Source: Diacronema lutheri (taxonomy: Eukaryota > Haptophyta > Pavlovophyceae > Pavlovales > Pavlovaceae). Taken from it: a stretch of DNA of 64,000 nt. Position 1 is the stretch's first letter. Every line of letters starts with the position of its first letter. Location: the NCBI GenBank assembly GCA_019448385.1, contig JAGTXO010000045.1, positions 187,501 to 251,500 of the forward strand, in the 5' to 3' direction. Below are positions 18,049-40,805 of the stretch, piece after piece. Both the position numbers and the translations under genes were made by a program. The notes beneath the pieces were generated by a model. It did no database searches. It was given only the letters and a program-made list of their open reading frames with translations, and was not told the origin of the DNA.

Positions 18049-18945
18049 CTCAGCTGCGGCGCGGACGCGCGCGCATGCACCGCCGCCGGCGGCGGCGGCG
18101 GCGACGACGGCGGCGGCGGTCTGGGCGGCAGGTGGCAGTGGCGGACGCAGCGACGCCCATCGCTTGGACGGCGCGTGCGGCGAGCGGCGAGCGGCGTGCG
18201 GCGTGCGCCACTTCTCTGGCCGCACTCGTCACGCGCCGGCTGCCTGCGCCCGAGGCACAGCTGCGCACGCAGCTCGTGCGGCGTTGCAAAAGTCCGGTTG
18301 GGTCCTGCCCAGTGAGCTGGCCATTGCGTGCGCGGACTGGCGACGGTGTTGCGCTCGGCGCCGCTGCGCCAAGTCAGGGCGCGCTCGGCGCGCGGCTCGC
18401 TGCGCTCAATCTCGTGCTTTGTCACTAATGACAAGTCCATGTGGACTGTGGGTGTGTGGGGGGGGGGGGGGGGGGGGGGGCGGGGGGGGGGGGGGGGGAG
18501 GGACAGTCGGGCTGCCCCTTGTCATCATTCAACTCGCTGTGTAGATGGTCAAGCCAAATCCGATCAGGGGCACGATCGAGCGCCCCGAGTGCAGCGCGGG
18601 CCATTCGGAAGGACGTCCTTGTGAGGGAGCTCTTCGCGTTTGGCGAGCGGGGGAGCACGACGCGCAGCGTTGCTGCGGCGGCGTGCGGGCGGCGAGCAGC
18701 GGTCGGGCTGCTCGCGACGAGGCCGGAGCAGACGGCGCCGTGGCCGCCGGCGCAGGTGACGCGCGCCGACGAGCCGTAGCGAGCGTCCGTGATCCGCACG
18801 GCGGTTGGAGCGGGCCGGCTGGTGCGGCGCGCTCGGCCACGGGTGGCGGCGTGCACGGGCGTGCCGAATGCGGTACGCGTCGCCAGCCGCGCGCGACCTG
18901 GGCAGAGCCCGCAAAGCGTCGACCGCTGCGCGGCTCGGCCGTGCG

Positions 18946-21670
18946 TCAACGCCGGCCGCGCTTCGGCCCGCGCGCGCTGCCGCCGCCGGCACTGGCGCTG
19001 GCAGCTCCGCGGGCGGGGGTGCGGGCGCGAGCGCCGCCGCCGCCACCGCCGCCGCGCCCGCCGCCGTCGTCGCCACCGCCGTCGCCGCCGCCGCCTCCCC
19101 CGCCGTCATCGTCGTCGTCGCCGCCGCCGCCTCCGTCGCCGTCGCCGTCGCCGTCGCCCTCGCCGCCGCCGCCGTCGCCGCTGGCGTCGTCGTCGTCGTC
19201 GTCGTCGCCCTCGTCGTCGCCCTCGTCGCCGCCGTCGCACTCGTCGTCGCAGTCGTCGCCCTCGCCGTGCACCATGCGCTCCTCACGCTCCCACACCTCG
19301 CCGCGCGCCCACCAGGCGAGCACGAGGGCAAAGCGCTCAGGCGTCGACGTGGTGTCGCGCCCGGCCGCGTGCGCCGCCATGTCGTGCACGTCGTAGAAGA
19401 TGTTGCGCGCGGCGTTGTAGTCGCGGTGCACGGGCTTCTTGCCGCCGTTGCACGCCGGGCAGATGACGAGCGCGTGCACCGTGCGCGTGCCGCCCTTTGC
19501 CACGGGCAGGCGCGGGTTCTGCGCGAGCTCCGCGCCGCAGCGCTGCAGCCTGCCGCCCTTGGCGAGCCGCGGCATCGAGCAGTGCATCGACGTGTACGGC
19601 TCGGGCACGAAGACGGCCGCGACGCCGCGCCGCCGCAGCTCGCGCAGCAGCCCCACCTGGAAGGCGGGCGGCGCGCCCTTGGGCTGCGCGCCCTTGTGGT
19701 CGTGCAGCCACTTGCCCACGCACACGAGCAGCCGGTCGCGCGTCACGCCGTCGACGCAGTGCGCCGCGATGAGCGCCTCGGCGACGCGCGCCGCGTTGGA
19801 CCGCCCGCCGCTGTCGCGCCGCCAGCGCTCCTTGCGGCGCGCCGGCGCGTCGTACACGTGCTCGGCGGCGCGCTCGCGCACCCGCGCGCTCTCGCGGTGG
19901 AAGGCGATGTATTTGCCCGCGTCGAGCACCTTGGCGCTGTGCGCCTCGCCAAGCCGCGCCTCGTCCGCCTCCACGCTGAACTCCTCGCCGCGCCCGTCGG
20001 TGCGCACGCGCCGCCGCGCCGCGTTGGTCTTGGCCGTCTCGCGCGCAAAGCCCGCGGCGCGCGCGCGCGCGCGCTGCGTGAACTGCCGCCAGACGGCCGC
20101 CCGCCCGACGTGCGCAGAGTAGGTGGTGATGTTGCCCATGTTCGGGTCGGCCGCGACGACGACCGCCTCCTCGATGTCGATCGCCCGCCGCAGCTCGGAG
20201 CCGAGCGCGACGGCGATGCGCCCGTCCGGCCGGCGCCAGCGGTGCAGGACGCTCGAGCTGCCGGCCGGCGCCTGCGCCTTCGGCACGAGGACGGTCGCGA
20301 CGGCGTGCACGGCGACGCCATCCGTCACCACCGACGTGACGGGCTGCCGGCCCGGGAGCGGCACGCGCGGCAGCGGCGCGAGGCCCACCCACGAGCGCCG
20401 CGCGTGCCACGGCAGATCGGCCGGCGGCCGCTCGCGCCCGGCGTAGTCGAAGACGCGGTTGGAGATGTCGAAGCGCGTCGCGAAGACCGCGTACCTGACG
20501 CGCACGTCGGACATTGGCGGGACAAACGAGCCGCCTTGAGCGGTCCACTTGATCGGCTCGCCATCGTGGTCGCGCAGGTCCAGCGCCTTGAGCCGCGCGC
20601 GCAGCTCCTTGCGCTCGTCGTCCGGGAGCGTCTCCCAGATGGCGTTCGCGGTGAGGCGCACGTTGCGCGGCACCTGCGCGCAGCGCGCGGCGCGCGAGCG
20701 CGCGGGCGCGTGACCAACCTGGCCGCGGGGCGGCGCGCACGGCGGCGGCGCGCGCGCTTGGGCGCTCGGCGGCGGTAGCGGCAGCCGCGCCTCGCGCGCA
20801 CATTGTGCGTGCGCAGCGGCGCCACATTATACCGCGGCGGCCGGTCGGTGAGCTGCGTGTACAGGCGCGCGAGCCGGCAGAGCAGCGCCTGCCCCTTGGC
20901 CACGTGCTGCAGGTTGCGGATCTGCACGAGGAAGTAGCGCGTCGTGTGCCGGTCGTAGTTCCACCTTTTCGTGGGCGCGCACTCGTAGTTGATCTTGTGG
21001 AGGACCATGTCGGGCAGGTGGCGGTCGAGCGCGGCGGGGCAGCCGACGCGCGCGCCCTCCACGTCGCCGCGCAGCAGCCGCTCGCACAGCTCGCGCACGC
21101 GCGCGTTTCGCTGCATCTCGGGCAGCGCGACGAGCGCCTCGTCGCGCTCGACTGCCGCGCGGACGACGTCGCGGAGCAGCCCGTTCACGACGCGCGATGG
21201 GTGCATCAGGCACGCGGTGGACACCTGCGTCGCCTCCTCCGCGAGGATCTTATCGAGGCCCACCGCGCAGACGGGCTGGACGCCGTCGGCCATCTCGCCG
21301 ACGGCGCGCGCCGTCGCCGCCTTGGTCTGCGCGGCGGCTTGCTCGGCGGGCTTGCCTCGGGCCGCTGCACCGTACGTGCTCACGTCCTTGTGCCAGCCGA
21401 TCGCCGAGAAGATCGCACGGACGGTTCCCTTGTCCATCGTGGTCGACGTGTGCACGCTTGTCGACGGGCCGCCCGACGCCGCGCCGACGGCCTGCGCGCT
21501 CGCCACCGCAGCCTCGTCGCGCACCACCTTGTTGATGGCGCGGTACGCCTGTGTCGTGAGCCTGTGCACGGCCGCCGCGATGCGCCGCAGCTCCTTCCGC
21601 GCACCGGGCTGCGCCGTCACCGCCTGCGGCCCCGCGTTGAGCGTCGAGCGCTTGACCACGAAGCCCGGGA
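18946..21670 (-). other. Fanzor (TnpB-like RuvC RNA-guided nuclease) domain of the polyprotein
   Basis: The N-terminal helical part begins near 21,670 (RIAAAVHRLTTQAYRAINKV) and runs through KINYECAPTKRWNYDRHTT and RYNVAPLRTHN. After the 128-bp intron come VPRNVRLTANAIWETL and the RuvC core. Numbered from 20673, D176 lies in VVAADPNMGNI (RuvC-I), E358 in VFVPEPYTSMHC, and D418 in VHRDYNAARNI (RuvC-III). The usual RuvC-II glutamate position falls at CVGKWLHDHKG, where a Gly is present. The zinc ribbon has C365, C379, C405 and C408, so the first C-x2-C knuckle is altered (C365-S-M-P). Fanzors are eukaryotic TnpB relatives that use a guide RNA from the 3' end of their locus. The acidic and Gly-rich tail after residue 460 is extra. 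Confidence 0.85.
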
Positions 21671-24600
21671 GCACGCTGCCGCGCGTGCGCGCCGTCGCGC
21701 CGCCGGCGGCGCGCGCGCTCGGCGCAGCGGGCTCGTCCACGCGCGCGCGCTCGACGCCGCGCGCGCGGGGAACGCTCGGCGCGCGCGCGCCCGCGGCGTC
21801 GCGCGCGCTCGCGGCAGCACCCGCCGCGGCGCGCTTGCCCGCGGCGCCCGACACGCCGTGCGCGCGAAGCGGCGCCGACGCCAATGCCGACGCCGCGCCC
21901 GCGCCGCCGCTGCCGCTGCCCGATCCGCCCGCGCGCCGCTTCTGCTCGTCGCGCGTCTTGCGGAACTGGGCGACGAGGTCGCTGCTCACGTTGGCCTCAG
22001 GCTCCCACGTGTCGGCGCTCTCGTCGTAGCCCCGCCACCTGATCCGGAACTCGAACGTCAACTTCTTGCCCGCCTTGCGGCGCTCGTCGACGACCGCCTC
22101 GACCTCGTACGTGCGCGCCTCCTCGTCGACGCTCGCGCCCGCCGCGCTCGCGCCCGTGTCCGGCCACCCAGCGACCGTGCCGCCCAGCCTCTCGGCGGCC
22201 GCGCGCAGCTGCCGCTCGCGCTGGGCGGCCGCGGCGCCTCGCGCGACCAGCGCGGGCAGCATGCCCGCGCCGCCCGCGAGGCCGTGCGCGCCGACGCTGG
22301 CGGTCATCAGCGCGTCGAGGCACGCGAACGTTGCGAGCGCACGCGCGCCATCGTCGCCGCCGCGCGGCTGCGAGCGCACGACGGGCGATGGCTGCGGCTC
22401 CCCCTCGGCCGCGAGCAGCGGCCAGATCGCACTGGCCAGCGCGACGGCATGCGCGCCGACCGCGGCGGCCACGTCCGCGTCGAGCGGCGCAAAGTCGTAG
22501 CGCACGAGCGCGGCCGGGCGCGAGTCGTCCGTCGGCCGGTCGGCGACGAGCAGCCCGACCGGGCGCGGCGGCTCGCCGGACGGCGCGGCGACGGGCACGC
22601 AGAGGAGCACGACGAGCAGGCGCGGCGTGCCGCCGAGCAGCGCGCGCGCGGCATCCGCCCCGTCGGCTCCGCAGCGCGCGGCCGCGGCGAGCAGCTCGGC
22701 CGCGCGCGTCGGGCCCAGCGCCGTGCGCGCGTCCTTGCGCGCGCGTGCGCGCGCCGTGTACGCGGCGCAGGCGTCGTCGAGCGCCGCCGCGCTGGGCGCG
22801 GTGCCAGTCGTCGCCCACGCGCGCAGCGCGTCGCGCACCCGCGTGACGATCGCCTGGTCGACTGCCGCCTCGCCGGCAGCGTGCGCCGGCGCGCACGCCG
22901 GCGGTGCGGCGGCAGGCGCGAGCGCGGGCGCGCCGTCGGCGCCGTCAACGCCGACGGCGCCGTCGGCGCGCCGCCACGCGAGCTTCGCCTCGATCTGCTG
23001 CCGGACGGCGTGGCAGTGCCGGTCGATGCCGCGCGCGTCGTCGAGCGCGGCCAGCGCGTCCTCAGCGGCGGGACGGTCGCTCGCGTCCGCGACGGCCTGC
23101 AGGCAGAGCAGCGCGGCCGCACGCGCGTTGCACGCGCTCTGCGGCTCGGGCGCGAGCGCGAGCTCGAGCTCGAGCGGCGACGCGCCTCGCGCCGCGGCGA
23201 TCGCGTCCATCAGCACGTCCAACCGCTGCACCAGCGCCCTGTGCGCGTCGCGCGGCGCGCCCGTCGACGGCGCGCGCGAGCGCGTCGCCACGAGCCCGAG
23301 CGCGCGCGCCGGCGCGCCCGCCGGCGTGTGCAGCACGAGCAGCGCCGCGCCCGCCAAGCTCGCGTTGCGCGTGACGAGCGCGAAGATGCGCGACGCCTCG
23401 TGCGCGCCCACCGACGCCCAGATCGCAGCGCGATCGGCGTCCGTCTGCGCGTCGCACAGGTCGCGCACGTCGTCCGGCGCGAGCAGCGCGCCGCCGCCGG
23501 CGGAGCGCGCGACGATCGCCCGCGCCTCCGCCACGAAGACGGCCTGCGGCAGGTCGGCGTGGCGCGCGTCGACGATGGCGCGCGTCGCGTGCACGCCGAG
23601 CTCCACGCCGCGGTAGAAGGCGCGCGCGTTGGCCGCGCGCGCGTGCGCCGGCCGTCCGTCCGCGTTGCGCCTCGCGCGCGCCTGCTTGCTCGTGCGCGCG
23701 AGGCCGTCGCGTGGCGGTGGCGGCAGCGTAGCGAGGAAGCGCGCGGTGGGCGGCGGCGCGCGCACGCCGCGCTGCCGCCGTGCGATGGCCGCGAGCCGCC
23801 GGCCCGCCGCGCTGCCGCCCGCGCCGACGTGCTGCCAGCGGTTGAGCGCCGCCGGTGGCGGCGGCGGCGGCGGCGCGGCGGCGGGCGGCGGCGCGACGGC
23901 GGGCGGCGGCGCGGCGGCGGGCGGCGGCGCGGCGGTGGGCGGCGGCGCGGCGGCGGGCGGCAGCGGCGGCGGCGCGCCGGCGACGGCAGCACCAGTCGGC
24001 TTGTCCGCCCACGCACCCGAGACGCTGTCCCAGGCCTTGCCCGGTGGCGCGCGCCCACGCGGCCGCGGGTGGCGGGCTCGAGCGGCGGGGGGCGGGCGGC
24101 CGGCGCGCCAGTCGAAGACAGGTGCAACCGTGGCGGCAGGCGCTGAGTGCCGCGCGTCGGTCACAGAGCGCGTGGTGCGCGCGGCGACCGTCGCGCGCAT
24201 GGCGGGCGGGCGGTGAGCAGCGCCCGCCGGCGCGCCGGCGGGCGCGGCAGCCGGCGCGCCGGCGGGCGCGGCCGCCTCGAGCCCGGCGGAGGCGCCGCGC
24301 TTGCGCTTGCGCGTGCCGCCGCGCGTGCGCCTGCGCGCGCGCCCGCCGCGCGCCCGTTCGGCCTGCGCGTCGCCAGCCGCGTCGCCGGCCGCGTCGCCGC
24401 GCCGCACGTAGACGACCGCGAACGCCTCCTCGCCGGTCCCGTCGACGCCGCCGCGCGCGCGGCGCAGGACCGACCGCCACTGCAGCCGCCGCGCGCGGCC
24501 GGGCTCGCACGCAAACCAGCGCCCACCGCGCCTGACGACGGCCACAAAGTCGTCGTCGCGCCGCCCGCGCCGGCGCGTGCGCAGCAGCACGCACTGCACG

Positions 24601-27600
24601 TCGAGCCAGGCCTCGTGCCAGTCGGCCGTGCTGGGGGCGACGCGAATCGACTGCGGGAGCTCGACGCCAAAGCCGGCGAGCCGCACGATGTGCGCGACGA
24701 TGACGCTCGAAATGGCGGGGGCGCTCGACGGGTCGCCCGCTGCAGCGAGCACCGCCCCGCCCCAGTGCTCACGCGTGACGCAATCCGCGTCCTCGACGTG
24801 CACGTGCGCCACGCTCGCGCCGAGCTGGTGCAGCAACGCGCAGATGTCGGCGTCGACCGTCCTCTCCTCCTCGGCCGCCTCGGCCGTGCCGCGGGCGGCG
24901 GCGTCGCCTGCCGGCTGCCCGAGGTACGCGATCGCCCGCTCGACGGCCGCGCGCTCCGCACGCGCTGCGCTGTCGATCGCCGCATTGCCGACGGGCGCGC
25001 GCAGCGCCGCGATCGCGTCTTGCAACGCCGTCGCGTCGCCCGTCGCCGCCGTCGCCGCCACCGCCGCCGCGCTCGCGGTGCCGTGCGCGACGGCGTGCAG
25101 CGCGGCGGCGCGCGCGGCGGGGATGCGCCCGTCCAGCGCGAGCACGAGCGGCGGCCCGGCCGGCGTCTGCTGCCGCCGGTGCCGCCGGCTCGCAGCCGGG
25201 TGGTCGGCGCGCGCGCGCTCGAGCCGCGCGCGCCGCTCGACGACGCGCGCCCAGAAGGCCTGCACCCTCGGCTGCGCGAATGCAAGCCAGCCGGCGCCGC
25301 GCGTCACGACGTGCACGACGATCCGGTCCTCGTGCCTGAGGTACTGCACGTAGAGCGCTTTGCGCACGCCGAGGACGTGCATGCCGAGCTGCAGCTGATC
25401 GCGGTGCGGCTGCGGCGGCCCGTCCTCGTGCGCCTTGGCGTCCGCCTTGGTGAGCGTCTTCACCTCGACGAGGACCTGCTCGTTGTCTTCGGGGAGGATG
25501 GCGAGCCCGTCCGGCGAGAAGGCGAACGGCGCGCTCTTGTCGTGCGGGTCCGCACGCACCATCGGCAGGTTGCACACGACGGTGATGCCGTACGCGGCCG
25601 CCAGCTTGCGCAGCGCGACGGCCTCGCCGAGGATGCCCGCGGTCGTCGCCTTGGTCCGCACCTCGCGCCGCCGCCGGTGCACGTACTCGTCGGTGAGCGT
25701 CTCGTGCGCGACGCCGGCGTTGTCGTTCACGACGTCGCCAACCTTGCTGCCCGTGACCTCCTCCCATCGCTCGTCGTGCCAGCGCGGGCTGCGCTGCGCG
25801 GGCGCGCCCGCGCCGACGGCGTCGAGCACGCGGCGCAGCGCTGTGCCGTCGGGCGCAGCAGGCACGCGCGCGCGGTCCTGGGCCTCGCGAGCGTCGAGGA
25901 CGCAGCCCGTAGTGGAATCTTGGGGTAGGTCGAGCTTGCTCGCCTCGCCGTAGCGGCTCTCCAGCTGGCGCGGTGCGTCGGCAGGGCCGCCGTCCGTGCG
26001 CGCACCCGACGCGCCCGCCAGTGCACGGGGCGCAGCGTCCGAGGCGCCCGCCGCGCCCGCGCCGCCGCCAATCGCGCCAGCGCACGCGCGCGCCGCGACC
26101 TGCGGACGGCCAGCCGCAGGGACCTCGTCCGCTCGGCCGGCCGCTGCGTCGGCCGTCCGCTTGGCCACCTCGCGCACGTCTCCGAGCGCGAGCGTGGCTG
26201 GCGCCGTCGAGCTCCCGTGGCGTTTGTTCCAAAACTCGAGCAGCCCGCCAAGGAAGGGCGTGCCCGTCGGGCGGTCCTCGGGCACCTCCGCCAGGATCGC
26301 GTCGACGCGCAGCGCGGCCGCCACATCGCAAAACGCGCGCGCGGCGCGCGCCATCCGCTCGGCGCGCGCGCCGCCGTCGTCCGCCGCGCGGCGGATGGCG
26401 TGGCTCACGTGCGCGACGCGGAGCGAGACGACGGCGTGCGCCGGCGCGTCGGCGCCCGTGCCGAGCGTGTGCCGCCGGATGGCCAGCTGCCCATCGCCCA
26501 TGCGCGGCGGGAGCGACGCGCACGCCGCGACGGTCGTCTTGCCGGCCGCGCTGTCGCACAGCCAGCTCGCCTCGCCGCCGCCCGCAAACTCAAAGGTCGC
26601 GAAGCCCTCGCGGCCGAAAAGCGCGACGAAGTGGTCGAGCACCGCCTTGTTGATCGCGCGCGCCGCCGGCCGCGTCGATGCGCCGCGGGCAGCGCCACCC
26701 GCCGCGCCGCGCGCATCGCTGCACGTCGCAGGGCAGGTGCAGCCGGACGCGCGCACGCCGTCCGACCGCGTCCGCGGCAGCTCGAGCTCGCGCACCTTGG
26801 GGCAGAACCAGAGCGGGTTGGACGCCTCGAGGCACAGCACGACGAGCCGCCCGTCCGTGCCGGCCAGCGCGCGCGCGTCGCGCAGCAGCTCGACGGCGAG
26901 CTCGGACGTCGCCGCGTGCACCGCCGGCTCGCCCGTCGCGCGGTCGGGCGGGAAGAGGCCGCCGCCGACGAGCGGGCTGGGGCAGCGGCCGAGCATCACG
27001 AGCAGCGGCGGCGGCGGCGTCTGCGGCGCCTGCTGCCCGACCGCAGCCGCCGTCAGCCCGGCCAGGTCGGAGCTCGTGCGGAGGGCCTTGAGCGCGACGC
27101 GCGAGCCGGTGCCCGCCTGCTCGGAAAACGTGGCGAGCATGGCGCACGTGCTCGCCCTCGCGCCGCACTGCCAGCTGACGCGCGCGAGGAGGCCTTCCAG
27201 CGTGTCGTTTTCGCGCGGCCGCGTGACCGCGTCGAGCGCCGCCGAGTCGAGCTGGAGGCTGCCGGGCGTGACGCACAGCACCGCCTCGTGGTAGGCGCGC
27301 AGCAGCTCCCTCGGCAGCTGCTCGGCGGGCGTCGCCGCCTGCCCGCCCACCCACCGTGCACCGTGGCCGCCGTCGCCCGCGCCCGCGAGCCGCACCGCCG
27401 GCCCGCCCGTGATCGCCGAGGTCGGTGGCGTGCCGAGCGCGTCGACGAGCGCGCGCACGGGCGCGACACGCCTGCGCGCAGCGTCCGCGCCGACGGCGAG
27501 CGCGGCGATCCGAGCGCCCTCCCATGCGCGCTCCCTCGCGTCGTCCCGCGCGGCCGCCGGCGCGGCGCCCGGCCGCGCGCCGGGCGGCACCGCGCACGCC

Positions 27601-29490
27601 GCCGCGACGACCTCCGCGCGCGCGCCGGCGGCGTCGGGCGCGTGCAGCTGCGCGAGCGCGCCAGAGAGCGCGGCGGCCGAGCGGTAGCGGCCGTGCGCCG
27701 CGACGAGCGCGTAGAGCACGCGCAGCGCGGCCACGCCCGCCTGGTCGGGCGCGTCGTCAGCGATGCGCTCGACCTCCCACGTGCGCGTGGGCGGCGGGCT
27801 GCCGTCGGCCGGGTCCGGACGCAGCGCCCACGCGCGCTCGACGATCGCGTTGAACACGCCGTGCGCGGCGCCCTCGTCAAACTCGGCGGCGCCCGCCGCG
27901 TGCGCGCACCACCCGTGCACGCGCGACGTGGGCGCGTCCACGGCGCGCTGCACGACGAGCACCGCCGGCCGGTCGACGCAGCCGAGGCTCACCGCCGCGT
28001 GCTTGCCCTCGAGCAGCGCCGCCGCCGCAGCCTCGACCAAGGCGTCACCAGGCGCGTCGCCGACGACGACGGCACAGCCGTCGCCGTACTCGGCCTGCAT
28101 CGCGGCGACGCACGACGCGACAAAGTCGCCGCCCGCGGCCGCCGCGTGTCGCGCCGCCAGCATCCGGCGCGCGATGGCAAGCCAGACGTACTCGGCCGGC
28201 GCGCGCGCGGCGCGCGCGCGAGGCGCGCCGGCCGCGCCGCGTGCGCCAGCGCGTGCGCCTCCAGCGGCCGCAACGGCCGAGGCGGCTGGAGCGGCGGTGA
28301 GCGTGCGCCGCGCGCGCTTCGCCGGCCGCGTGATGGGCGATGCACCCGCCGTCGCCCCGCCCGCAGCAGCCGGTGCGGCCGCCACAGCGCCCGCCGCAAC
28401 GCCACTCGTCACGACGCCCGTGGCGGGCGGCGCGGCGGCGGACGCGGCCGCCTCGACGGGCGTCGCGCAACTACCGCCAGCGGTCGCGGACGCGCCCGGC
28501 GACGCGTCGGCGAGGAGGTGGCGCAGCACGCCGCGCGCGAGCGCGACTCGCACGGCGAGCGTCAGCGCGCGCAGGCGGTCGGAAGGCGAGGCGTCGCGCT
28601 CGGCGTCGGCGGACGTGGCGGCAGCAGGCGAGGCGGCGGGCGGCGCGGCGGCGGGCTGGGCGGCCGCCGGCGCAACCTCGTCGGCCTTGGCCAGCCAGAC
28701 GAGCCCGGCGACTGCGAGCACGACGCTGTACGCGCCGACATCGTCACCCGCAACGCGCGCCAGCCGGGCGTGGGCGTCGGCCTCGGACACGGCGACGTGG
28801 AAGAGCACGTCGTCGCGGGCAGCTTGCTCGGCAAACTGACGCAGCTGCTTGGCCATCGTCACGCCGGCGACGCACGCCTCGCCCGCCTCTGCCTCGACCT
28901 GCTCGTCCTGGCCGATGGCGGACGCGCCGGCCTCGGCGCCAGCGTCGAGTGTCCGGCGGCGCTCGAGGGCGAAGCCACGCACACAGACGCTCTGGAGGCC
29001 GCCGAGCGCGCCCGCCTTCTCGTGCAGCGCGCACGACAGCTCGACCACCGAGTCCACGCGCCTCGCGGCGGCGCCCCCCCGCTCGCCGCGCGTGGCCGCG
29101 CGCACGACGAACACCGTGAATTGCGCGCGCTTCGCCGCGCGCGCCGACGCGCACGCGTGCTTCAGGAGCCGGCAAAGCGCGGGCCTTTGCGCCGCTGCGC
29201 CCCGCGTGCACAGCAGCAGTTGGCCGCGCTCGTCGCCCAGCTCCTGCTCGATGGCGGCCTCGAGCGCGTCGTCCGTCAAATCGCCGTGCTCCGTCGAGGC
29301 GAGCGCGCGCGCAGCCGCGAGCGCCAGCTCGCCTGCGCCCGCGCGCCGCCGGCGGCGCGCACCGGCGGGCGCGTGCGGCGCCGACGCGTGTGACGACGCC
29401 GCCGCGTCCGCGCGCGCACACGCGGCGCGCAACGCCTCACGCGCCGAGGCGGCCGCGCGCGCCCTGGGCGCGAGCTTCAAGAACGTGCGC

Positions 29491-29583
<93 letters not shown>

Positions 29584-32500
29584 TCGCCCTCGTCGCCGGC
29601 CGGCGGCGGCGGTGGCGGCGGTGGCGGCGCGGCCACGGCGGCGGCAGCAGCGGCGGCGGCGGCGGTGGCGGCGGCGGCGGCGCCCAGCGCGGGCGGCGGC
29701 GGCGTGGCGGCGGCGGTGGCGGCGGCGGTGACGCCAGCGGCGGCCTTGGCGCCGCGCGTCTGCGGCGGCGTTTCGGCGCGATCGGGGCTGCCCCCGCCAC
29801 GCACCGCGCTCGTGACCGCGCAGACGCCGCCCGGCGCACGATCGCTGGCCGCGCCGGTCAGCGCGACGCGGAGGCGCTCGCCGACAGCGTACATGTCCGC
29901 CACGCTGAACGTGCGCGGCGCGGACGAGCAGCCCGCCGCGGCGAGCGCGTCGTTGAGCGCGCCCACTATCGCGAGGCCGCACGTCGCGCCACGCTGCGCC
30001 GCCTCGTTGAGCAGCAGCGCGCGGCGCACGCGCGAAATGTCGAGACCCGCCGCGTGCAGCGTGGCAGTTATCGCCTTGGCGAGCATGAGCGCCTGCCTGC
30101 AGGGCGACGCGAGCGTGTCGACGAGCACCGCGTCGTAGCGATGCTCGCCCGCGCGCGCGACGCGCACAAGGCGCAACGCGGTGAAATGGCCGGAGGCGAG
30201 CTGCGCGCCGTCGTCACCGCCCGCGCCGCCGCGCTCGTCCGACGGGCTCCACACGCCGATGACAGCCTGCGTTGTCGCCTCGCTGCGCAGGCGGTGCAGC
30301 AGCGCGGCGCGCTCGGCGCCGTCCTGGAACACCGCGGGTTGCGCGGCGAGCGGCACGTGGCAGACATGCCCGCCGCCGGCCTGCCCGTGCACGCGCAGCA
30401 CGACCTCGCAGCACGCGTCGACGGTTGAGGCGAGCATGTCGCCGCTGGCGATGCGCTCCACCTCTGCCTGCGGGAGGCCGGCGCTCGCGGCGGCGGAGGC
30501 CAGCCGGCGCGCAGCCGCGTCGCCCGCCCACGCCAGCAGCGCCGAGTTGGCGGGTTGGAGGGGAAGCTCAAGGGCGGCTGGTTCGGTGGCGGTAGCCTCG
30601 TTGGCAACGGGCACGTTGGCGGTGCGCACGTTGGCGGCGGGCGCGGCGGCGATGGCTGGTGGGGCGGAAGACACGCCCGCGGCGGCAGGCGCGGACGCGA
30701 CAGCGGCAGCGACTAGTGGGGCGGGGAAAACGCCGTCGGTGGCTGGCGCGGAGGCGAGTGCAGGAGCAACTAGTGGGGCGGGAAAATCGGCGGCAGGCGC
30801 GAAGGCGGATGCAGCAGCGGCTAGTGCGGCGGGGAAAACACCGTCGGCGGCAGGCGCGAAGGCGGATGCAGGAGCGCCCAGCGGGGCGCAGAAAACACCG
30901 TCGGCGGCAGGCGCGAAGGCGACAGCAGCAGTGGCCAGTGGAGCGGAGGCGCAGGGCCACGCGCGCGCCAGCCGTGCAAGCCCAAGCCGCGCGCGAGCGA
31001 CGCACGCGCCGATGGCCGAGGCGGCGGCGCAGGCCACGACGTGGCCTGGCACCGGTGTGGCCAGCCGCTCGCGGGTGTGCACGTCGAGCCGCGCCCCACG
31101 CCAAGAGCGGCGGCGCGCTGAACGGAGGCGCGCGACCCCGATCGATCCGCCCGCGCACGCGCGCGCCGGCTCAGTGTGGCCAACGCGCGCCGCTATGCAA
31201 GGCGCGCGCGCGATAACGGCGGCTGTCGGCCGTGGCGTGCGCGTGGCGGCGCCGCGGCGACGGGCGCGGCACACGAGCCGCTCGGGCGCGCCGCCGCCGC
31301 GCGGCACGATGTCGAGCAGCACGGTCACGCCGCGCGCGCGCGCGACCGCCGTGCACGCGAGCCGCACGGGCAGCGGCGGCCCGTCCGGGCGCGCGAGCGC
31401 CGCCACCTCGGCGTCGGTGAGGCTGTGCAGCTCGCGGCGCGCGCGCGCGAACGCGGCGATGTCCGCGCGCAGCTCCGCGTCCGTGCCGAGCGCGGCACGC
31501 GCGTGCACGGGGAGCGACGCGCGCAGCGCGTGGAGCACGCCGCCGCGCGCGCCGCGCGGCGCCGGCGCGCGATCGCGCTCAGCGCGCGCGGCGCGCGTGA
31601 GCTCGCGCACCGCGCGCGCGAGATTGCGCCGCGCGGCCGCGACGGGAGGGCTAGGTGCGCGCGCGCGCCGGTTGTAGCGCGGCCGCGCCGAGTCGAGGGG
31701 CGGCGGACGCGGTGCGTACGCCGCGGCGCGGCCCGCGCGCCAAAAGGCCGGCGGCGGGCGCAGCTCCGTCGCGTCGACCGCGGCCGCGAGCGCGCCGAGC
31801 GCGGCGTCGCTGTCGCCCGCCGCGTCGGCCGCGTCGACGAGCACGAAGAGCGCGCCGAGCGCGCGCGACGCGGCCGCCTGCGCGGCGGTGGGGCGGGCGC
31901 AGGCAGCGACGCATGCGGCCGCCATGCCGCGCGCCGCGGCGAACGCCGGTGACGTGACGGCCGCGCCGATGGCAACGGCGGCGGCGGCGACGGTCGAGGC
32001 GGCAGCGCCGGCGATGGAGGTGGCAGCGGCGGCGGCGCTTGCCATCGCGCGGCGCGCGAGACGCGAGGCGCCACCGACCGCCGCCGCCGCAGCGCGCGCT
32101 GCGCGCGCGCCGGTGGCGCGCATCGTCGCCGCGCCAGGCGCCGCCGCGCCGACGCCGCCGGCGCCCGCGCCGTCGCCGCTCTCGGCCGTGCAGGGCTCCG
32201 ATGGCGAACCCGGCGTGCGCTGGCGCGTGATGCGCGCGCCGAGGCGCGCGCTCCGCGCCGCGCGGCCGGCGACGTCGAGGAAGCGCCGTGCGCGCGCCGC
32301 GCGTAGGCCACGCGCGCGCGGCGGCGCACCGACAGGCGCCGAGCGCCGCGGCGCGCACGCCGGCGCGTCGCTGTCGGGTTGCGCAGCGCGCGCGCGGGAA
32401 CTCGGCGCGGCGTGTGCGGGCGGCGGGCGCGCGCCCGCGCGGCGCAGAGGCGCGAGGCGCCGGCCGCAGACGAGGCGTGTGCGCAACCAGGACGGCGAGG

Positions 32501-35500
32501 GCCGCAGGGCGCCGTCGACGTCGCGCATCGGCGGGCCGCGAGCCCGCCGCGCAGCCGTGCGGCGCGCGCGAGGCGCTCGGCGGCGCGCGCGCCGCACGGC
32601 GCGCGCGGCGGCGCGCACGCCAGCGACGGCTGCGGCCACGCCGCGCGCCAACACGGCCGCGGCGTGCGCCATCGCACCGAGCACGGCGCGTGGCGCGCCG
32701 AGCAAGCGCAGCAAGCGCGACGCCGTCGCGCGCGCCGGCGCACCGTGTGCAGGGGCCTCGCCAGCGCCAGCACCGACGCCGCCATCGCCGCAGCCGCAGG
32801 TGGCGTCGCCGCCGCCGCAGGCGTCGCGACGGACGCCGCCGCCGCCGAAACAATCGCCGCACACGTCGCCGCCGACGTTGCCACCCCAGCCGCCGTTGCG
32901 TGCGCAGGTGGCTGCGGCGCGTGCGTGCGGGAGGCGTGCCGTGCGGCGCGCATCACACGGGCTGCGCGACGCGAGCGACGCCGCCGGGGTCCCCGCTGCG
33001 CCAGGCGCGCCGTGCGCGCCAGCCTCGCCGGCCTCGCCGGCGCGCGGTCGCGCGCTCGCCTCGACGTGGCCGCCTCCGCCGCCATCGCCGCCGTCGAACC
33101 GGGCGGCGGAGGGCTGCCGCTCGAACCGCTCGTCGGCGTCGGCCGCCACCGCCGCCTCGCGCTCCGCCGCCGCGGCGGCCGCCGTACGCGCGTGGCGGAG
33201 CGCGCGGCCGCCGTCCGCTGCGCGGCGTGGCGGCGCGGGCGCCGCCTTCGGCGCGCGCGGCCCCTCGGCGCGCTCGCGGAGCACGGCGAGCGGCGTGCCC
33301 GTGGCGACGCTCGTGCAGACGCGCCGCAAGGCGGCGCTTACGCACGCGTGGACGACGCGCGCCGTCCGCTTGTCGGCGGCGCGCGCGGCGCGGCGCGCGG
33401 CCTTGGCGGCGGCCTTTTTGGCGCGCCTCTGCTCCGCCTGCTCCGACAGCGCGCGCGCCTGGCGCTCGGCTGCGAGCGCGTCCTCGGGCGAAACGGTCGG
33501 CCTCGGCGGCCGCGCGCGCGCGCTGCGACGCTGCGCGCTGCGGCGGTCGGACGGCGGCTGCCGCGGCGGCGAGGATGGCGAGCGCGAGCTCGGCGTGGGC
33601 GACCAATCGCCGCTGACGGTTGCGAGCGGCGCAAACGGGTTGTCGTCCCCGCGCCCCGCGGCGTGCGACAAAGCACGCGGCGTCGGGCGCCGGCCGACCG
33701 CTGGCGGGCCCCACTCGGACGGCGGCTCCGAGGGCGAGCGCGCCGTCGGCGCCGCGCGTTGCGCGGCCGGCGGCGCCTCCCGGTCCAGCGCCGCCTGCTC
33801 TCTCGCCGCGGCCTGCTCGTCACCCTCCGGCACGCCACGCGGCGCGAGCACCGCGGTGGCGCAGCGCGTCGCGTTGAGCAACGCCGCCTCCATCTGCCGC
33901 ACGCTGGCCTTGGCGCACGCCACACCCTGTCTCGCCCGGCGCAGCGCCTCGTGCGCGCGGCGCACATCCGCGTCGGCATCTTCGCGCATGCCAAAGTGCG
34001 CCTGTTGCAGCCGCAGGTCCGCAGGGCGCCCCTGCGCGCGAGGGGCACGGGCGCGGCGGCGCGCGGGTGACGGAGCTGGCGCGCCGTTCTGCGCTGCGCG
34101 CACGCCAATCGACGGGCGCGCGCGCGGCGGGGCGCGCGCGCGCGCGCGCGCGCGCGCTGCCTACCCAGCCGCCGGCCGGCTCGCGCGAGCGCGCCAGCTG
34201 CTCCGCCGCCTCGGCGTCGAGCACGCGCTGCTGCGCCTCCTCCTCGCCCAGTGCAGCGAGGTGCAGCCGGCGGGCTGCCTTGCGGCAGTTGCCCTCCGCC
34301 TTGCCCACGGCCTTGCGCGCCGCGTCGACGGGGTCGTCGTTGGCTCTGGCGCGCCTGCGCTTGCCCTTGTCGGCGGGCGGCGGCTCGGCGCGCTGCGGCG
34401 CGCCGAGCGCGTCGTCGGCTCCGCGCGCGGCCGCCCGCGGGCGGCGGGCCCCAAAGAGCGCACCGGTCGCCGTGCGCGCCGCGCAAGCAACGACCAGCGC
34501 TGACACGCCGGCGAAGACCGCACCGCCCAGCGCCACGGTTGCCACGATGCGCAGCGTCCCGTGCGCAGGCCGCGCTGCCTCCGCCGCCGCTTTGGCGGCC
34601 TCGCGCGCGCGCGCATCGGCGGCTCTCATCTCGTGCAGCAGCCCGGCCGCGCCGCTCGCGCCGTCGCGGCCGCGCGCGAGCTCGCACAGCACCGCCGCCG
34701 CGCGCCGCGTGGGCTCGCGCGCGAGCAGCTGCGCGCCGCCGTCGGGGCGCAGCTTCTCAACGAACTCGGCAAACGTCGCGTCGCGCCAGAGGGACATGCG
34801 GAAGGCCCTGTGCACCGCCCCCTCTTGCTCGCGCATCCGCCGTGCCGCCCGCCTGCCGTCGCGCGCGTGCGCGTGCGCGGCCGCGTCGAATCCCGCGACG
34901 CCGCGCTGCGCGTCGCGCGCGTCCGACGACGGCGCCGCCGCGCTGCCCGCCAAGGGCGCCGCAGCGGCGACGCGCGCGTGCGGAGCGACGGGATCGCCGG
35001 CGGCCGGCGGCTCGGCGCGCTGCGGCGTGCCGTATGCTCCGCGCGCGGCCGTCCCGGGGGAGATGGCCGCGATGGCGCCGCCAGCCGCGCCGTGCGCCAG
35101 CCACGCGCATAGGCTGCCGACGAGCTCGCCGAAACCCCCGACGGTCGCCGCGGCGGCGAGTGCGCCGGGCTTGCCGGCCGACAGCGGCTCGCGAGCGTCG
35201 TCGTCGCAGCCGCCGGCACCCGTCTTGGCGAGTGCGTCGCGCTCGCCCTCGACGCCCGCCACGACCGCCGCCCCTCCGTCGTCCGCCGCGCCGGCCGCGC
35301 GCGCGGCCGGGCGCAGAGGAGGCGTGCCGGTGCAGCCGTCGCCGCTCATCTTCGCCGTTTCCTCCACCTTGATCGCTTCGTCGCCACCTGCGCCATCTCC
35401 GACGCCGGGGCCCTTGGTCACGCTTGCCGCCATGCGCGCCGTGCCCGCCGGCCAGCCCGCCGACTGCTCGAGCGCGGCGGCGAGCGGCGCGACGCGCGCC

Positions 35501-37842
35501 GACTCGGGCGCGCTCTCGTCATCGGGCTCGGGCGCGTTGTGCAGGCGCGCGAGCGCGCGCTCGACGGCCGCGGCGCCACTGCCGGGGGCGCGGCTCGCCG
35601 CGCGCACCGCGCGCCGCCAGGCCGGCGCGAACATGAGCGCCGACTCGAGCGCCGCGAGCGCGCGCGCCTCGCGCGCGTCGCTCGCGCCGAGGCGCGGCGG
35701 CACGCGCGCGGCGCCGCGCGGCGCGGTGCCTCGGAAGCGTGGGCTCAGCGTGTAGGCGAGGTGCTGCGGCACGCCGCGCGCCTCCGCGCGCGCGCGTCCG
35801 TCCTCGACCTCGCGCCGCGCCTTCGCGATCGCCGGCGTGGCGCGCGCGAGCCAGTCGGGGTCGGCGGGCAGGTGGATCACGACGAGAATCGGCGCCCAGT
35901 CCAGCCGCGGGTTCTTGTGACGGTCGGGCACGACCCACACGAGCAGCACCGTGCCCTCCGCGCCGCACGCCGCCTCGTAGATCCTGGGCTGCGAGCGCCA
36001 ATCGGGCCTGACGCGCAGCGCCCGCGCGTGGTCGATGGCGGCGGCGCGGTCGCCATTGAAGTGAACCGTCGTCACCTCGCCGTTGACGGACCGGCCGGAC
36101 CGCCAGCAGAACACCGCGTCCGCCGACCCGCCGGCGATGGCCGCGAGCGATTCGGGCGCGGCGAGCCGCGGCAAGCCCTCGAAGGCGGCAAAGTCCTCGT
36201 GCGCATTGTACACGCCGCCCCAGCCGTCGTGCGCGTACGCGCGCGCGGCCGCTCGTACCGCGCGCGGCTGGTTCTCCACGCCCGACGTCATGTGCCGTGT
36301 CGTCCCCGCGAAGCCGGGCTCGCCCAGCTCGGCCCGCACGACGGTACCGTACCCCGCGCCCTGCGTCGGGGCGGCGAGGTGGTGCATGCCCGCGCCGGTC
36401 ACGCCCTCCGTGCGCTGCCGCGTGACGATCGTGCCCGTCGCGTGCGCGAAAAGCGTGTCGACCACGGCGGGCGCGCGCCCGCTGTTCGCCCGCAGCCGCG
36501 CCCTACCCGCTTTTAGCTGCTCGGGGTCCTTGGCGTCGTACACGCGCGCGTCCGCGTCGCCCTCATCAGGCGCAGTGTAGACGCAGCGGCGTTCGAGCGG
36601 CGCCGAGCCACCGCCGTCCGCCGCCGCCGGCGAGGTTGGCGCCGCGCCCGCCGCCACCGCGCTCGTCGCCGCCGTGCCCGTCGCCACCGCCGCAGCCGCC
36701 GCGCCCGCGAGGTCGTCGTCCCCGTCCTCCGCGCCCTCCCCGTCGTCAGCGGTGGTGGCGTCGCCATCGTCCCCGTCGCCCTCGCCCCCGCCGAGGAGGC
36801 TGAATGGTCGGGGCCCCCACGCCGAGGCGGCGCGCCGCTGCGGCGCACGCGGCGGTGGCGCTCGCGACGGCGGCCTTGGCGCCGCCGCGCCGCGCGGCCT
36901 GGCCGCCGTCGACAGCGCGCGGCCTGCAGCGCCCGTGAGCGCGTCGAGCGCGGCCGTGCGTGCGATGCGGTCGTCGGGCGCGCGCAGCGCCGCCTCGACG
37001 GCCTGCAGCAGCCCGTCGGGCGCGGATCCGCCGACACTGGCATCGCACGCCTCGGCGAGCCGCGCGGCCTCGGCGAGCCGCGCGGCCTCGCGGGTGAACG
37101 GGCCGAAGCGCCTGGCGCGGTCGCCGAGCAGAGCGCCGATGGCGGCGCGGAGCGTGCGCGCGCGGGTCTCCTCGTACGCGGCCGTCGTGAGGCGCGCGAG
37201 GCGCGCGTCCAAAGCCTTCTTGATCTCGACAAGGACATTCGCGCGGCGGCCGTAGAGCGTCGATGCGCTCGCCGCGACCTCGGCCGCGACTGTTGCCGCG
37301 GCGAAGCAACACGCGGCCCCACTCTGCGGGGGCGCCTTGAAGGCATCGATGGGCGGCGCTGTTCTGCCGATGCGCTGCGCAAGCTTCTTGATGAGCACGC
37401 CGGCCGCCGTGGCGTACGCCGATTCGCCGTTGCCCAAGGTGCGCGAATCGGCGAGCAGGGCGAGCGCGGCGCCGGGCGGCGCGCCGCGCTGCGCGGGCGG
37501 CGCGAGGAGCAGGTACGCCGCCGTCCAGTGCGCGAGGCCGCTGGACGCGCGGAGGCAGAACGGTAGCACGACCACGAGCACCTGCCCAAACCGGTCCGCA
37601 TCCGCGCATGCTTTGCGCAGGTTGCGCAGCGCCACCTTGAGCGCATGCTGCGAGCACCCCGTGTCGCCCACCCTAACCCTGCTCGTGCCGAAATCCGCGT
37701 AACGCAGCAGGGCGATGAGGCAAGTGGATGGGACCACGTGGGGGTGGGTATCTCCCGGCGACAGAATGGTGCTGAGGGCCAGCGAGAAACTGTCCGAGCC
37801 GCCCCGCCCGCCGGGCAAAGCGTCCTTCACGGAGTCCTCCAT
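18946..37842 (-). CDS. Giant Fanzor polyprotein: C48 protease - C48 protease - YqaJ exonuclease - chromodomain - Fanzor nuclease
   Basis: Three exons (37842-34165, 34031-20802, 20673-18946) encode about 6,211 residues. Introns of 133 bp (donor GTAGGC) and 128 bp (donor GTGCGC), both ending GCGCAG, are phase 0. The second rejoins PLRTHN with VPRNVRL inside the Fanzor part. Domain order: C48 protease A (about 20-200; H105, D132, Q173, C178); unrecognised folded block (about 420-715); predicted membrane helix near 1095-1125; low-complexity regions; C48 protease B (about 2,450-2,620; H2508, D2531, Q2572, C2577); poly-Ala and unrecognised blocks; YqaJ nuclease (about 3,970-4,160); Pro-rich linker; chromodomain (about 5,200-5,257); Fanzor (about 5,350-6,211). 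The combination looks like a large transposable element product, perhaps self-processed. A CTGCAG directly before the ATG means an upstream exon is possible. Terminal repeats were not found. Confidence 0.8.
21935..22115 (-). other. Chromodomain within the polyprotein
   Basis: The frame reads TYEVEAVVDERRKAGKKLTF, then EFRIRWRGYDESADTWEPEA and NVSSDLVAQF. This has the chromodomain pattern of an initial aromatic YEVE, the F.I.W.GY core with the second and third cage aromatics, the TWEPE turn and a C-terminal helix. Chromodomains bind methylated lysine, mostly on histone H3. In chromoviral integrases they bias insertion toward heterochromatin, so a targeting role is inferred. Confidence 0.88.
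25230..25800 (-). other. YqaJ-type viral recombinase exonuclease domain within the polyprotein
   Basis: The domain opens with RSPRWHDERWEEVTGSKVGD and has a GILGEAVALRKLAAAYG helix. It then shows the PD-(D/E)xK core: FSPDGL (D4067) followed by VEVKTL (E4082, K4084). RDQLQLGMHVLGVRKALYVQ is the Gln-rich C-terminal motif of the family. YqaJ/lambda-Exo enzymes degrade one DNA strand from a double-stranded end and work with a single-strand annealing protein. No annealing protein is recognised in the window. Confidence 0.82.
29494..29590. repeat. (GGC)n repeat encoding poly-Ala in the polyprotein
   Basis: About 30 GGC/GCC units encode a run of roughly 30 Ala between C48 protease B and the next block. 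The frame stays open for any triplet copy-number change. Confidence 0.9.
29930..30560 (-). other. C48/Ulp1-like cysteine protease B within the polyprotein
   Basis: The catalytic order is His (SGHFTALRL, codon 30186-30188), Asp (AVLVDTLASP, 30117-30119), Gln (29994-29996) and Cys (29979-29981) in AAQRGATCGLAIVG. This is the H-D-Q-C arrangement of the Ulp1/SENP clan, with the helix after the Cys preserved. Ulp1 relatives cleave SUMO or, in adenoviruses and polintons, process viral polyproteins. Here processing of the giant protein is an inference. Confidence 0.75.
30690..30950 (-). repeat. Tandem protein repeat, about five copies of an 18-20 residue unit
   Basis: The unit reads approximately ASAFAPAADGVFPAPL at the protein level, with matching DNA-level repeats. 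It lies just N-terminal to protease B and looks like a flexible linker. Confidence 0.8.
37240..37790 (-). other. C48/Ulp1-like cysteine protease A at the N-terminus of the polyprotein
   Basis: From the start codon at 37842, the domain shows VVVLPFCL followed by GLAHWTAAYLLL (H105), ALALLADSRTLG (D132) and APPQSGAACCFAAATVA (Q173, C178; C179 adjacent). The order is H-D-Q-C as in Ulp1, and the Gln-to-Cys spacing of five is the same as in protease B. The HW pair is typical of Ulp1. The two domains look like diverged duplicates. Confidence 0.75.
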
Positions 37843-40464
37843 CTGCAGACTGTGGGCACGTCAGTGTCCGGATGGCGGCCCGGATGATACTTGGGAGAAT
37901 TTACATGATGCCCTGGAGAATGCCCCGCTCTCCCACAACCAGGACCCGCCAGCGCGCCGAGCCTACTCGTTTGCCCGCGCCGCCTCTCTTTGCGCGCCCG
38001 AGCGCGGCCTCCGAGCGCGGCCAACGTCCTCCGGGGGCGTGCATCGTGGCTGCTCGGAGGGGCTGCGACGCGGCGAAAGCTCGCTGCGCGGCCGCAACGT
38101 GAGCGCGCGCGCGCGGCCGCGCGCCGGCCTGCGCTGCTCTGCACGGCCGCGCGCCGGCCTGCGCAGCCTCGTCGCGCAGCGTGAGCGCGAGCGCGCGCGC
38201 GGTGAGCTCGGCGGATGGGTGCGCGGCGGCGTTGGCGGCGGGTGCGGCGGCAGGCTGGGCGGCGGGTTTGGACGGAGAGTGTCGGGGAAGAACGGGGCGC
38301 ATCCTGGTTGGGAGTTGGACGGCGCCCACCACGCGCTGGCGGATCCTGGTTGCCACCACCACCAAACCCCCCCCCCCCCCCCCCCGGAGACGAGGACCAG
38401 GGGCATGGCCGACTCGCTGCGCCGCACAGCGCGCGGCGCGCGGCATGCTGCGCGACCTCAGGCACATCCAGCCGCGCTCCGCGCACGCAACGCGCGCAAT
38501 GCCGCGTTGCACTGCAGATGTGCACGTGCGGCTCTCACGCGCACTGTGTTGCACGAACGGCATCACGCCACCGAGCTGCGTCCGGACCACGCGCCGCGCG
38601 CAGGCGACCACACAGGGGCGCGCCGCGCCGCGCGTGCGCGCCCTCGCAACCGTTGCAGCACGCTCTGCCTTGCACTGCGCCGAGCCGCCGCGCGCTGTGC
38701 GCGTGCATGCAGGGCGCACGCGTGCGACGAAGCGCGCGCGCGGCGAGGCGCGCGGGCGGCTCGCTGCGCGGGCGGCAACGCGCCAAGCTGCGCCCAGACC
38801 AGGCGCGCGCCCGCGAGTGCCACCGGGACGCACTGCCCCCGCCGGGGTCGCCGCGCGCTCTGTGTGTGCGCTCGCGCGCTGCGAGCGCGGCGGAACGTTC
38901 GTGCATGGCGCGAAGAGCGCGGCACCCGAAGACGGCTGCCCCGAGCCCGCGCCGGGTGGCAGCGAGCGGCGGCACCTCCTCGGCGAGCCCGCCCCGCGCC
39001 TTCCCCTCCACGTGGCGTTTTGAGGCAGACGGACACGCGCCCACACTGCGACTGGGCACGCTGCTCGAGGCAGACACGCACCCAACGCGCGCGCACCACG
39101 CGCCCGCGTCGGCGGGCCGGTGTGAACGAGCGAGAGCTCGGTGTCGCCAACGGGGGCACGGGCGCGAGTTCGGTCCGCCTCTCGACGGACGCAGGCGACG
39201 CTGCCGGGAACTTCCCCGACGCCTGCACATCCAGGGCTTCGAGGTACAGAGCTGGGCAACAGTGCCGCTCGTCACCGATGAGGCGGCCAAGCTTGCTATC
39301 CTTGCTGCCCTCGGCTCCACCAAACAGCCGGGCGACCCAACGGTTCGTGATCGCCTGGCCGCCAGGTGCGAACCGCGTTCATGCAGGCGCTTCGCCCGCA
39401 TTCTCCGCCCCGCTGCGGACGTCCGCCTGCCGGCCGCGAACACGGCCGGTGCGCGCTGCCGCCTGGCCCAACACGAAAACGCGCCCGCCCCCGAGGCCGC
39501 AGGTCCTACCTGCCCAAGCGCAGCCCAACGGCACGCAGACAGCCCGCCTTGGCAACCGACTCGTGCGCGAGCGCTCCGCCCTCCACAAGAGCCTGCCCCA
39601 CGCCACCGCCGACGCGGAGCCAGCGCAGCCGACGCCCCTCCGCGACGCTCGCGCCGCAAGGCGCAAGGGCCCCGGCGAGACGGCGTCAACCAAGCCCGCC
39701 GCTGGCACAGCGCCGGCACCCGGAGCCCACCCCAAGCCCGCACGCCTCGCCCCCCCCCCCCCCCCCCCCCCCCCCCCCGATCGGCGGACCGATTGCGTTT
39801 TGGTGCGCCAGGCTCAAAGCGCCATCGCAGTGGCGGGCCCGCAGACGCAGACGCTGACATGCCCAACGCTGGGCACTGAGGCCGCAGGCCGGCCCTCCTG
39901 GACCTGGCGGGCGAGCTGCCCGCGCAGCGGCCACGCGAGCCTCGCACTGACCGTGGCGGTCGCTGCCACCGTGATAGCTGCGGGTGCGGCGGCCTTGGCC
40001 CCAACCCCATCATCCGTCTTCATCCCCGCCCTGCTCGCGCTCGCGGCCTACGTCGGCAATCCCTGCACCGGGATCCGCCCCGCGAAGTCCACACAAGACT
40101 TATCCGTGCTGCACGCCAGCCGCGCGCGCCGACGCGCGCCGCTCCCACACGCTCACCTCCGTTTCCGCGGGCGGCCCAACGCGCCCCCCCCCCCCCCCCC
40201 CCCCCACCCCCCCCCCCCCCCCCCCCCCCCCCCGGCAGGCGGCCATCGAGCCGCATTAGCACACCCGCCCGGGGCCTCCCGCCGCACCCGCAGCGGCTCG
40301 GCGCCTTGAATCCTCCCGTCCCCTGGGGTGAGGCCTTCAACCCGGGCCCAGCGCGCTCCGACTGCCTCACGCGCGCCAGCGCCAACCTCGGCGGCATGGT
40401 AGGCCCCGAGCGAAAAGCCGCACTTCTCGCCGTCCTCGTCAGGCGCAAGTACGTTATCCTGCTC
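37843..40464. other. Degenerate region upstream of the polyprotein, possible plus-strand retroelement remains
   Basis: No intact gene is seen. Three plus-strand poly-C tracts (about 38,367, 39,751 and 40,183) suggest plus-strand introns or slippage tracts. Short plus-strand segments look coding but sit in different frames: DDTWENLHDALENAPLSH near 37,885, IQGFEVQSWATVPLVTDEAA near 39,230, and LGNRLVRERSALHKSLPH near 39,550. The 5' regulatory sequence of the Fanzor polyprotein gene must also lie here. Confidence 0.4.
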
Positions 40465-40575
40465 CTACTGCCGACGCGGTTCCCGCGCGCGCGGACTACT
40501 ACGCCGGGCAGATCGCCGCAGACGCACGTAAGTGCACACGTGCGGACAAGGCGCACACGCTCGACGTCCAGTTAG
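40306..40575 (+). pseudogene. Possible truncated non-LTR retrotransposon ORF2 start
   Basis: The frame reads WGEAFNPGPARSD, then ASANLGGMVGPERKAALLAV and KYVILLLLPT before it degenerates. A GEA.NPGP-type segment followed by N.GG...(K/R)...L......D/Y.ILLL is how many LINE ORF2 products lead into an APE-type endonuclease. No endonuclease catalytic motif or reverse transcriptase follows, so at most this is a short fragment. It overlaps the 3' exon of the minus-strand USP gene. Confidence 0.25.

Positions 40576-40772: not shown

Positions 40773-40805
<33 letters not shown>

Follow-up and report, generated by a model that had tools for sequence, protein, structure and literature searches.

Does the giant minus-strand reading frame at this Diacronema lutheri locus encode one fused protein that ends in a Fanzor nuclease, and what kind of mobile element carries it? 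The locus lies on contig C42 of the 43.49-Mb D. lutheri assembly, and the whole stretch of 64,000 nucleotides that we have analysed is called the window, to whose positions all coordinates below refer unless another contig or locus is named. A first-pass annotation had treated the region 18946..37842 as the entire system. The giant ORF does fill this region, but the mobile unit proves to be larger (18542-47700).

When the minus strand is spliced at two predicted GT-AG introns, an ORF of 6,211 codons plus a stop is obtained, with no internal stop. This confirms the single minus-strand frame of ~6,200 codons with two introns that had been proposed from the letters alone. On this strand, exon 1 (34165..37842, with its ATG at 37842), predicted intron 1 (34032..34164), exon 2 (20802..34031) and predicted intron 2 (20674..20801) were placed by splicing to the open frame, where exon 2 draws in addition on the indels of the copies and intron 2 on their splice sites and on the junction in an annotated protein. 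Exon 3 (18946..20673), which encodes the RuvC/TNB half of the Fanzor and an acidic tail, was placed by splicing, by Pfam and by comparison with the related protein P0005. All 11 fetched copies have the same splice sites at intron 2, whose length is either 128 or 130, the sole indel being a +2 in L024 and L057. The annotated D. lutheri protein P0006 (KFE25_006464) carries the spliced intron 2 junction, RTHN directly followed by VPRN. P0006, on contig C69, is a SAM-domain protein whose N-terminus is a Fanzor piece spliced at the element's own intron, and it may represent either a chimeric gene model or an exaptation. In the accessible part of the genome paper, it is stated for the genome as a whole that the annotation had RNA-seq support.

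The length of the frame is not explained by base composition, since the longest open frame in first-order Markov sequences simulated from the same region averaged 754 codons and never exceeded 1,347 (100 runs), compared with the 6,211 observed. About 47 stops per frame are expected by composition in the giant frame.

The Fanzor1 region, approximately residues 5346-6074 of the 6,211, occupies 19264..21674 on the minus strand, interrupted by intron 2, and is recognised from its D/E/D residues, four cysteines and TDG motif. Its catalytic codons, on the same strand, are D at 20148-20146, E at 19602-19600 and D at 19422-19420, and Pfam PF07282 (Cas12f1-like TNB) matches it with 1.9e-6 and 28.4 bits, against a cut-off of 26.3. 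The D-E-D residues and the zinc-finger cysteines are present in the window, in 11 of 11 fetched copies and in P0005, which lies on a 2.3-kb contig and is 50% identical to the window Fanzor (45% by BLASTP). The positions invariant between the window and P0005 are D176, E358 and D418, together with C365, C379, C405 and C408. With the TNB match and the residues kept in all these copies and in P0005, the proposed Fanzor with an intact D/E/D triad is well supported. In the PDB, the Fanzor core gave only a non-significant match to Cas12f1 (E 0.48), ranked under an unrelated match, and the fold predicted from a 3-row alignment gave no fold support (pLDDT 40). The TDG motif of the WED domain reads VVTDGVAVH in the window and all 11 copies, and SDG in P0005. 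The RuvC-I DPG motif is absent, the corresponding segments being ADPNMGN in the window (that is, DPN) and ADTGPGG in P0005. TDG and DPG are described as marks of Fanzor1 in the accessible part of PMC10711439, and as DPG is replaced by DPN, we regard the window protein as a divergent Fanzor1-like protein. Compared with viral and transposon Fanzor1 as presented in the accessible parts of PMC10432273 and PMC10711439, it shares the RuvC D/E/D residues, the zinc-finger cysteines and the TDG motif, while it differs in having DPN rather than DPG and a giant N-terminal part fused to it.

Downstream of the coding region, 404 nt of 3' non-coding end (18542..18945, minus strand) lie between the Fanzor and the element terminus, and from this position it would be the expected place of a Fanzor guide RNA scaffold. 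In a search of this end for a structured guide RNA, the RNA fold was no better than shuffles (z -1.12) and Rfam gave no match.

Within exon 2, a lambda-exonuclease/YqaJ/RecE-like domain is found at 25230..25805 (minus strand) by profiles and by the motifs E, PDG and EVK, which are exact in 10 of the 10 copies that reach them. The RecE-like PHROG profile matches with 6.2e-16, whereas TIGR03033 (8.1e-6) falls far below its cut-off and Pfam YqaJ (0.018) is below cut-off in the window copy; the domain first labelled a YqaJ exonuclease is thus supported as a lambda-exonuclease by the PHROG match and the motifs. The chromodomain, also expected from the first reading, is of HP1/CDYL type and lies at 21957..22109 (minus strand), with a Pfam Chromo match of 5.5e-12 and with CDYL (1.2e-11) and HP1 (1.5e-9) as the closest solved structures in the PDB. 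It has a Y-W-Y triad that we take to be the aromatic cage, its positions being read by eye against HP1.

Two further segments, at 29859..30542 and 37093..37842 (both on the minus strand), are candidate cysteine proteases, unconfirmed and recognised by eye from an H-D-C pattern. They had been named C48 proteases, a name that we have dropped since neither candidate matches Peptidase C48 in Pfam, either as full frames or as isolated segments. A single-sequence fold of one of them was uninformative (pLDDT 41.6).

YqaJ loci were searched at E up to 1, and of the 150 scored among 203 candidates, 105 sit within open frames that reach 4,000 codons or more (median 4,502). We then compared indels in 13 stretches of 10 copies aligned to the window, a first table made without L011, L016, L019, L021 and L023. 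The net length of the exonic indel clusters is divisible by three in 13 of 14 cases, as against 7 of 27 outside the exons (Fisher p 5e-5); these 13 include one +1/-1 pair, and the single exception is a copy that has lost one base of the acidic tail. When all five mostly broken loci are added, the counts become 15 of 20 in exons and 7 of 28 outside (p 0.001). Two of the five contribute exon indels: those of L011, a rearranged copy on C8 that is 96% identical, are -25, +1, -5 and +15, and those of the truncated L021 are -2 and -21, with the -2 lying in exon 3. From these enlarged counts, we conclude that most copies keep the frame and that some broken copies have lost it. In 10 of 11 fetched copies, a single open frame runs through both the chromodomain and the Fanzor N-terminus, while in L011 the 25-base loss falls in the linker and breaks the frame between them. 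The same domain order, for which other copies were to be searched, is indeed present in the family copies read.

Substitutions among the copies speak against the fused-protein reading, in that they show little sign of amino-acid constraint: a crude dN/dS-like ratio lies between 0.2 and 1.6 in the different segments, with 0.51 in exon 3. In this exon, one substitution also creates a stop. Such low constraint at codon level is expected of young copies.

The mobile element as a whole is 29 kilobases long and spans 18542..47700, with its genes on the minus strand, as judged from copy breakpoints and end-pattern matches; the ORF region 18946-37842 is only part of it. On the left, the similarity of several copies to the window ends at 18539-18542, and the 3' terminus at 18542 is preceded by GTG in the window and by GTA in most copies. 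The right boundary, at 47700-47702, is given by copies on C50, C37 and C30 (99.7-99.8% identity) and on C1 (96-99%). The termini are TATATACGG and CCATCTATA(C), and the terminal inverted repeat, TATATACGG against TATAGATGG, is 9 bases long and imperfect, with 7 of 9 positions pairing. TATA(G) stands at both termini as a short direct repeat. Near the 5' end there is a perfect 18-bp palindrome (47637..47654, no strand assigned), and folding of the terminal DNA gave z -1.90 for the 5' 100-nt end and z 0.83 for the 3' end.

Allowing up to 2 mismatches, the end patterns match the genome 227 times for the 3' end and 248 times for the 5' end, and reversed-pattern controls gave 0 matches. Ends were paired by hand for 97 of 100 listed left ends (of the 227), three on C45-C46 being left out, with right ends taken through C44. 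For 67 of the 97, a correctly oriented right end is found within 45 kb, and 62 of these 67 pairs fall into length classes of 21.4-22.2, 26.0-26.9, 29.1-29.4 and 30.4-31.6 kb. The 67 paired copies sum to 1.88 Mb, and by extrapolation from 67 pairs to 227 ends we estimate that the family makes up about a tenth of the genome. The accessible main text of the genome paper reports 22.9% repeats, the annotated ones being mostly LTR, and has neither 'Helitron' nor 'transpos' in it.

The 3' terminus of the element is also the exact start of contigs C1, C5, C6, C10 and C12 and the end of C8 and C57. A telomere reading of the contigs that start at the element end was considered and set aside; these are probably assembly breaks at a repeat boundary. 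At the other end, several copies (L048 on C21, L046 on C57, L038 on C37 and L042 on C9) have parts of ACTAACGACGCTT in common immediately outside the 5' end, at differing offsets, as if 5' ends had been captured or were imprecise.

In the 21.5-kb class, of which one copy (on C47) was read, 2.4 kb of other sequence replaces window 30544-40802, so that approximately the first 2,400 codons differ, and the candidate protease at 29859-30542, the exonuclease, the chromodomain and the Fanzor are kept. Upstream of the giant ORF and on the same minus strand, the window element has two relics. One, at 41210..42109, is what is left of a gene for a ubiquitin carboxyl-terminal hydrolase; the open frame is longer in the 21.5-kb copy, with 439 aa (UCH 7.3e-15). 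The other, at 43840..45400, is a Helitron-type Pif1 helicase relic spread over several frames and identified by profile and PDB searches. Pif1 is in several frames in the longer (31-kb) C1 copy as well, and when a piece of it was compared with the PDB at a limit of E 0.01, the Helitron transposase Helraiser (1.2e-6) was all that matched. In that copy (L028 6298-7830, minus strand), ~300 residues with no family assigned stand ahead of the Pif1 part and in frame with it. A MITE-like insertion with 90-bp inverted arms lies at 45517..45836 (no strand assigned), and in the C1 copy (L028 8166-9052) it is partly inverted and duplicated.

We found no Rep in the element, and a Pfam search of the assembly gave only one partial Helitron_like_N match, on C63 and outside the element. 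The Pif1 relic shares 128 bp at 92% with this Rep-bearing locus, which is itself in several frames. The Rep remnant at this locus (L055, C63:31000-40999) adjoins an array of ankyrin repeats, and this array is related to an ankyrin gene that neighbours the element in the window (47736-48788). Among the element ORFs scanned there are no integrase, reverse transcriptase or recombinase families, and of 16 reverse transcriptase matches genome-wide, none is on C42.

How, then, does the element move? Both flanks were read for seven full-length copies (one each on C50, C30, C28, C9 and C21, and two on C37), none of which has a junction repeat longer than 3 bases. The window copy, an eighth, has the 6-bp GCTGTG on both sides (18536-18541 and 47701-47706); a 6-base target duplication, first suspected from it, was rejected as it is not repeated in the seven others. 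Another C9 copy (L018) has GCTGTGAG at its 5' flank, and this and the GCTGTG flanks may reflect target duplication, shared history or chance. The 5'-truncated copies have a common 3' end. Three of them were read at both breakpoints, and a target duplication of 10-12 bp is present in one and absent from the other two.

The Fanzor1-bearing elements CRe-1/2/3 of Chlamydomonas reinhardtii offer the closest comparison, and they are reportedly a few kb in size, compared with 29 kb for the window element. According to the accessible part of their description (Bao & Jurka 2013, PMC3627910), they share with the window family the Fanzor1 cargo in an alga, 5'-truncated copies with a common 3' end, full-length copies without target duplication next to a truncated one with it, the lack of an intact RepHel of their own, and short terminal inverted repeats, which in the window family may likewise be asymmetric. 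Unlike the elements described there, the window family has its Fanzor as the C-terminus of a 6,200-codon ORF with a lambda-exonuclease and a chromodomain, has no TTTT target in the flanks read, and has a duplication in only one of three truncated copies. Based on the termini, the absence of target duplication at full-length copies, the 5'-truncated copies and the broken Pif1, we read the element as a putative non-autonomous member of the Helitron2 type, nearest to the Chlamydomonas Helitron2-type Fanzor1 elements. Because Pif1 is in several frames and the element has no Rep, it should be at most a non-autonomous Helitron member. The idea of a self-contained mobile system is not supported: no Rep, integrase or reverse transcriptase is present among the ORFs scanned, Pif1 is broken up into several frames, and the most similar elements on record are themselves non-autonomous.

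Overall, we observe an open frame that is kept up in most copies read, intact motifs, defined element ends and a frame-broken helicase. The reading that we consider on balance probable is a Helitron2-like family whose three-exon ORF of ~6,200 codons ends in a Fanzor1, includes a chromodomain and a lambda-exonuclease, and has a proposed role in cutting and copying. It is rather unlikely, though deserving of weight, that two or more genes are present instead, with a separately initiated Fanzor gene behind an exonuclease/chromodomain gene and a long frame that results from rare stops. Stops are indeed rare at about 78% GC, but about 47 would still be expected by composition. A low-complexity linker of ~95 residues separates the chromodomain from the Fanzor, and an ATG lies within the Fanzor N-terminal part, as two genes would allow; yet the frame is open across this linker in 10 of 11 copies, and indels on both sides of it are mostly multiples of three. 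The 25-base linker loss of L011 does separate the two frames, and because of it we have slightly lowered our confidence in the favoured reading and slightly raised that in two genes. The failure of the polyprotein to find a tblastn match in two other Fanzor families, with TNB alone in the frame of the third, also speaks for separate genes.

The mode of movement admits another explanation, which we hold to be unlikely: site-specific recombination at the TATA core, or target-primed reverse transcription in trans, with Pif1 as a passenger. The TATA(G) repeat at both termini and the absence of Rep would suit it, and a fixed 3' end, 5' truncation and one 10-12 bp duplication also fit LINE-type priming. 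Against this, the seven full-length copies show no target duplication, the ORFs scanned include no recombinase or reverse transcriptase family, and the 16 genomic reverse transcriptase matches leave out C42. An integrated large virus or Polinton-like provirus is highly improbable. Exonucleases, proteases and Fanzors are found in giant viruses, and 29 kb is within the Polinton range, both of which we have counted in its favour. The occurrence of Fanzor in giant viruses is described in the accessible part of PMC3627910. However, no polymerase (PolB), capsid or packaging family is found among the selected ORFs scanned, two queries (P0005 and the exonuclease region) found no relative in IMG/VR, and the terminal inverted repeat, 9 bases and imperfect, is not a long one.

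For the favoured Helitron2-like reading, it is further relevant whether the fusion exists elsewhere. The assembly has at least 148 TNB matches (150 of 306 candidates scored), other Fanzor families included. A second family (L001-L008 and L054, C9:377167-388394) has DPGK and DFNAARN motifs and long open frames, and its 3' end, TATATAGGGCGCC, includes a hairpin-like repeat; it shares stretches 97-98% identical to the 5'-terminal region 46163-47612 of the window element. In a third (L058 559-4794, C86:1017000-1026900), the frame has 1,412 codons and an N-terminal part rich in alanine, and Pfam finds TNB only in this frame. Both have long N-terminal parts, and tblastn with the window polyprotein gives no match in either of these two families as read, so that the fusion, as far as the evidence now goes, belongs to the window family alone. 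Outside the family, the exonuclease-to-Fanzor part found no long protein at E 0.001 (1,302 scored), and the chromodomain with the Fanzor N-terminus found one match, at 35% over 20%. As this sole junction match is a chromodomain protein, no independent fused lineage was found, and the same domain order in another lineage, which was asked for at the outset, did not appear in either search.

Among known rolling-circle elements, Helentrons with OTU/VTD deubiquitinases, as far as the accessible parts of PMC4067079 and PMC9741609 describe them, resemble the window element in having cysteine proteases and a Helitron helicase, the window element having a USP-type hydrolase relic and candidate proteases. 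They differ in that no AP endonuclease or Rep was found in the window element and its hydrolase is USP, not OTU/VTD; the same parts of these reports do not mention Fanzor or lambda-exonuclease. In the literature searched, outside which most subscription papers and preprints lie, we met no description of a Fanzor fused to a chromodomain or exonuclease. To the extent of these searches, the fusion is new among Fanzor-bearing rolling-circle elements.

What could such a protein do? We propose that the RepHel of an autonomous relative would move the element in trans. The 3' end of the element may encode the Fanzor guide scaffold, with flanking DNA supplying the guide, and the Fanzor could then cut alleles or sites that match the flank. 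The exonuclease would resect the cut ends, repair would copy the element back in, and the chromodomain might steer the nuclease to methylated-histone chromatin. By these steps of cutting, resection and repair copying, the gene would retain and multiply the element rather than transpose it. The strongest form of this proposal, in which the fused protein is a chromatin-guided machine for cutting, resecting and copying at silent chromatin that drove the copy number without a conventional transposase, is a speculation that we rate as improbable.

The finding bears on what Fanzors do for the eukaryotic transposons that carry them, as here a motif-complete Fanzor shares its reading frame with a reader of histone marks and with a homologous-recombination exonuclease, in a family of many near-identical copies. 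The cut-and-copy idea is testable in one culturable alga, for which guide RNAs and target sites can be predicted from the copies. If true, it would provide a case from nature of an RNA-guided nuclease that is targeted to chromatin by a fused domain.
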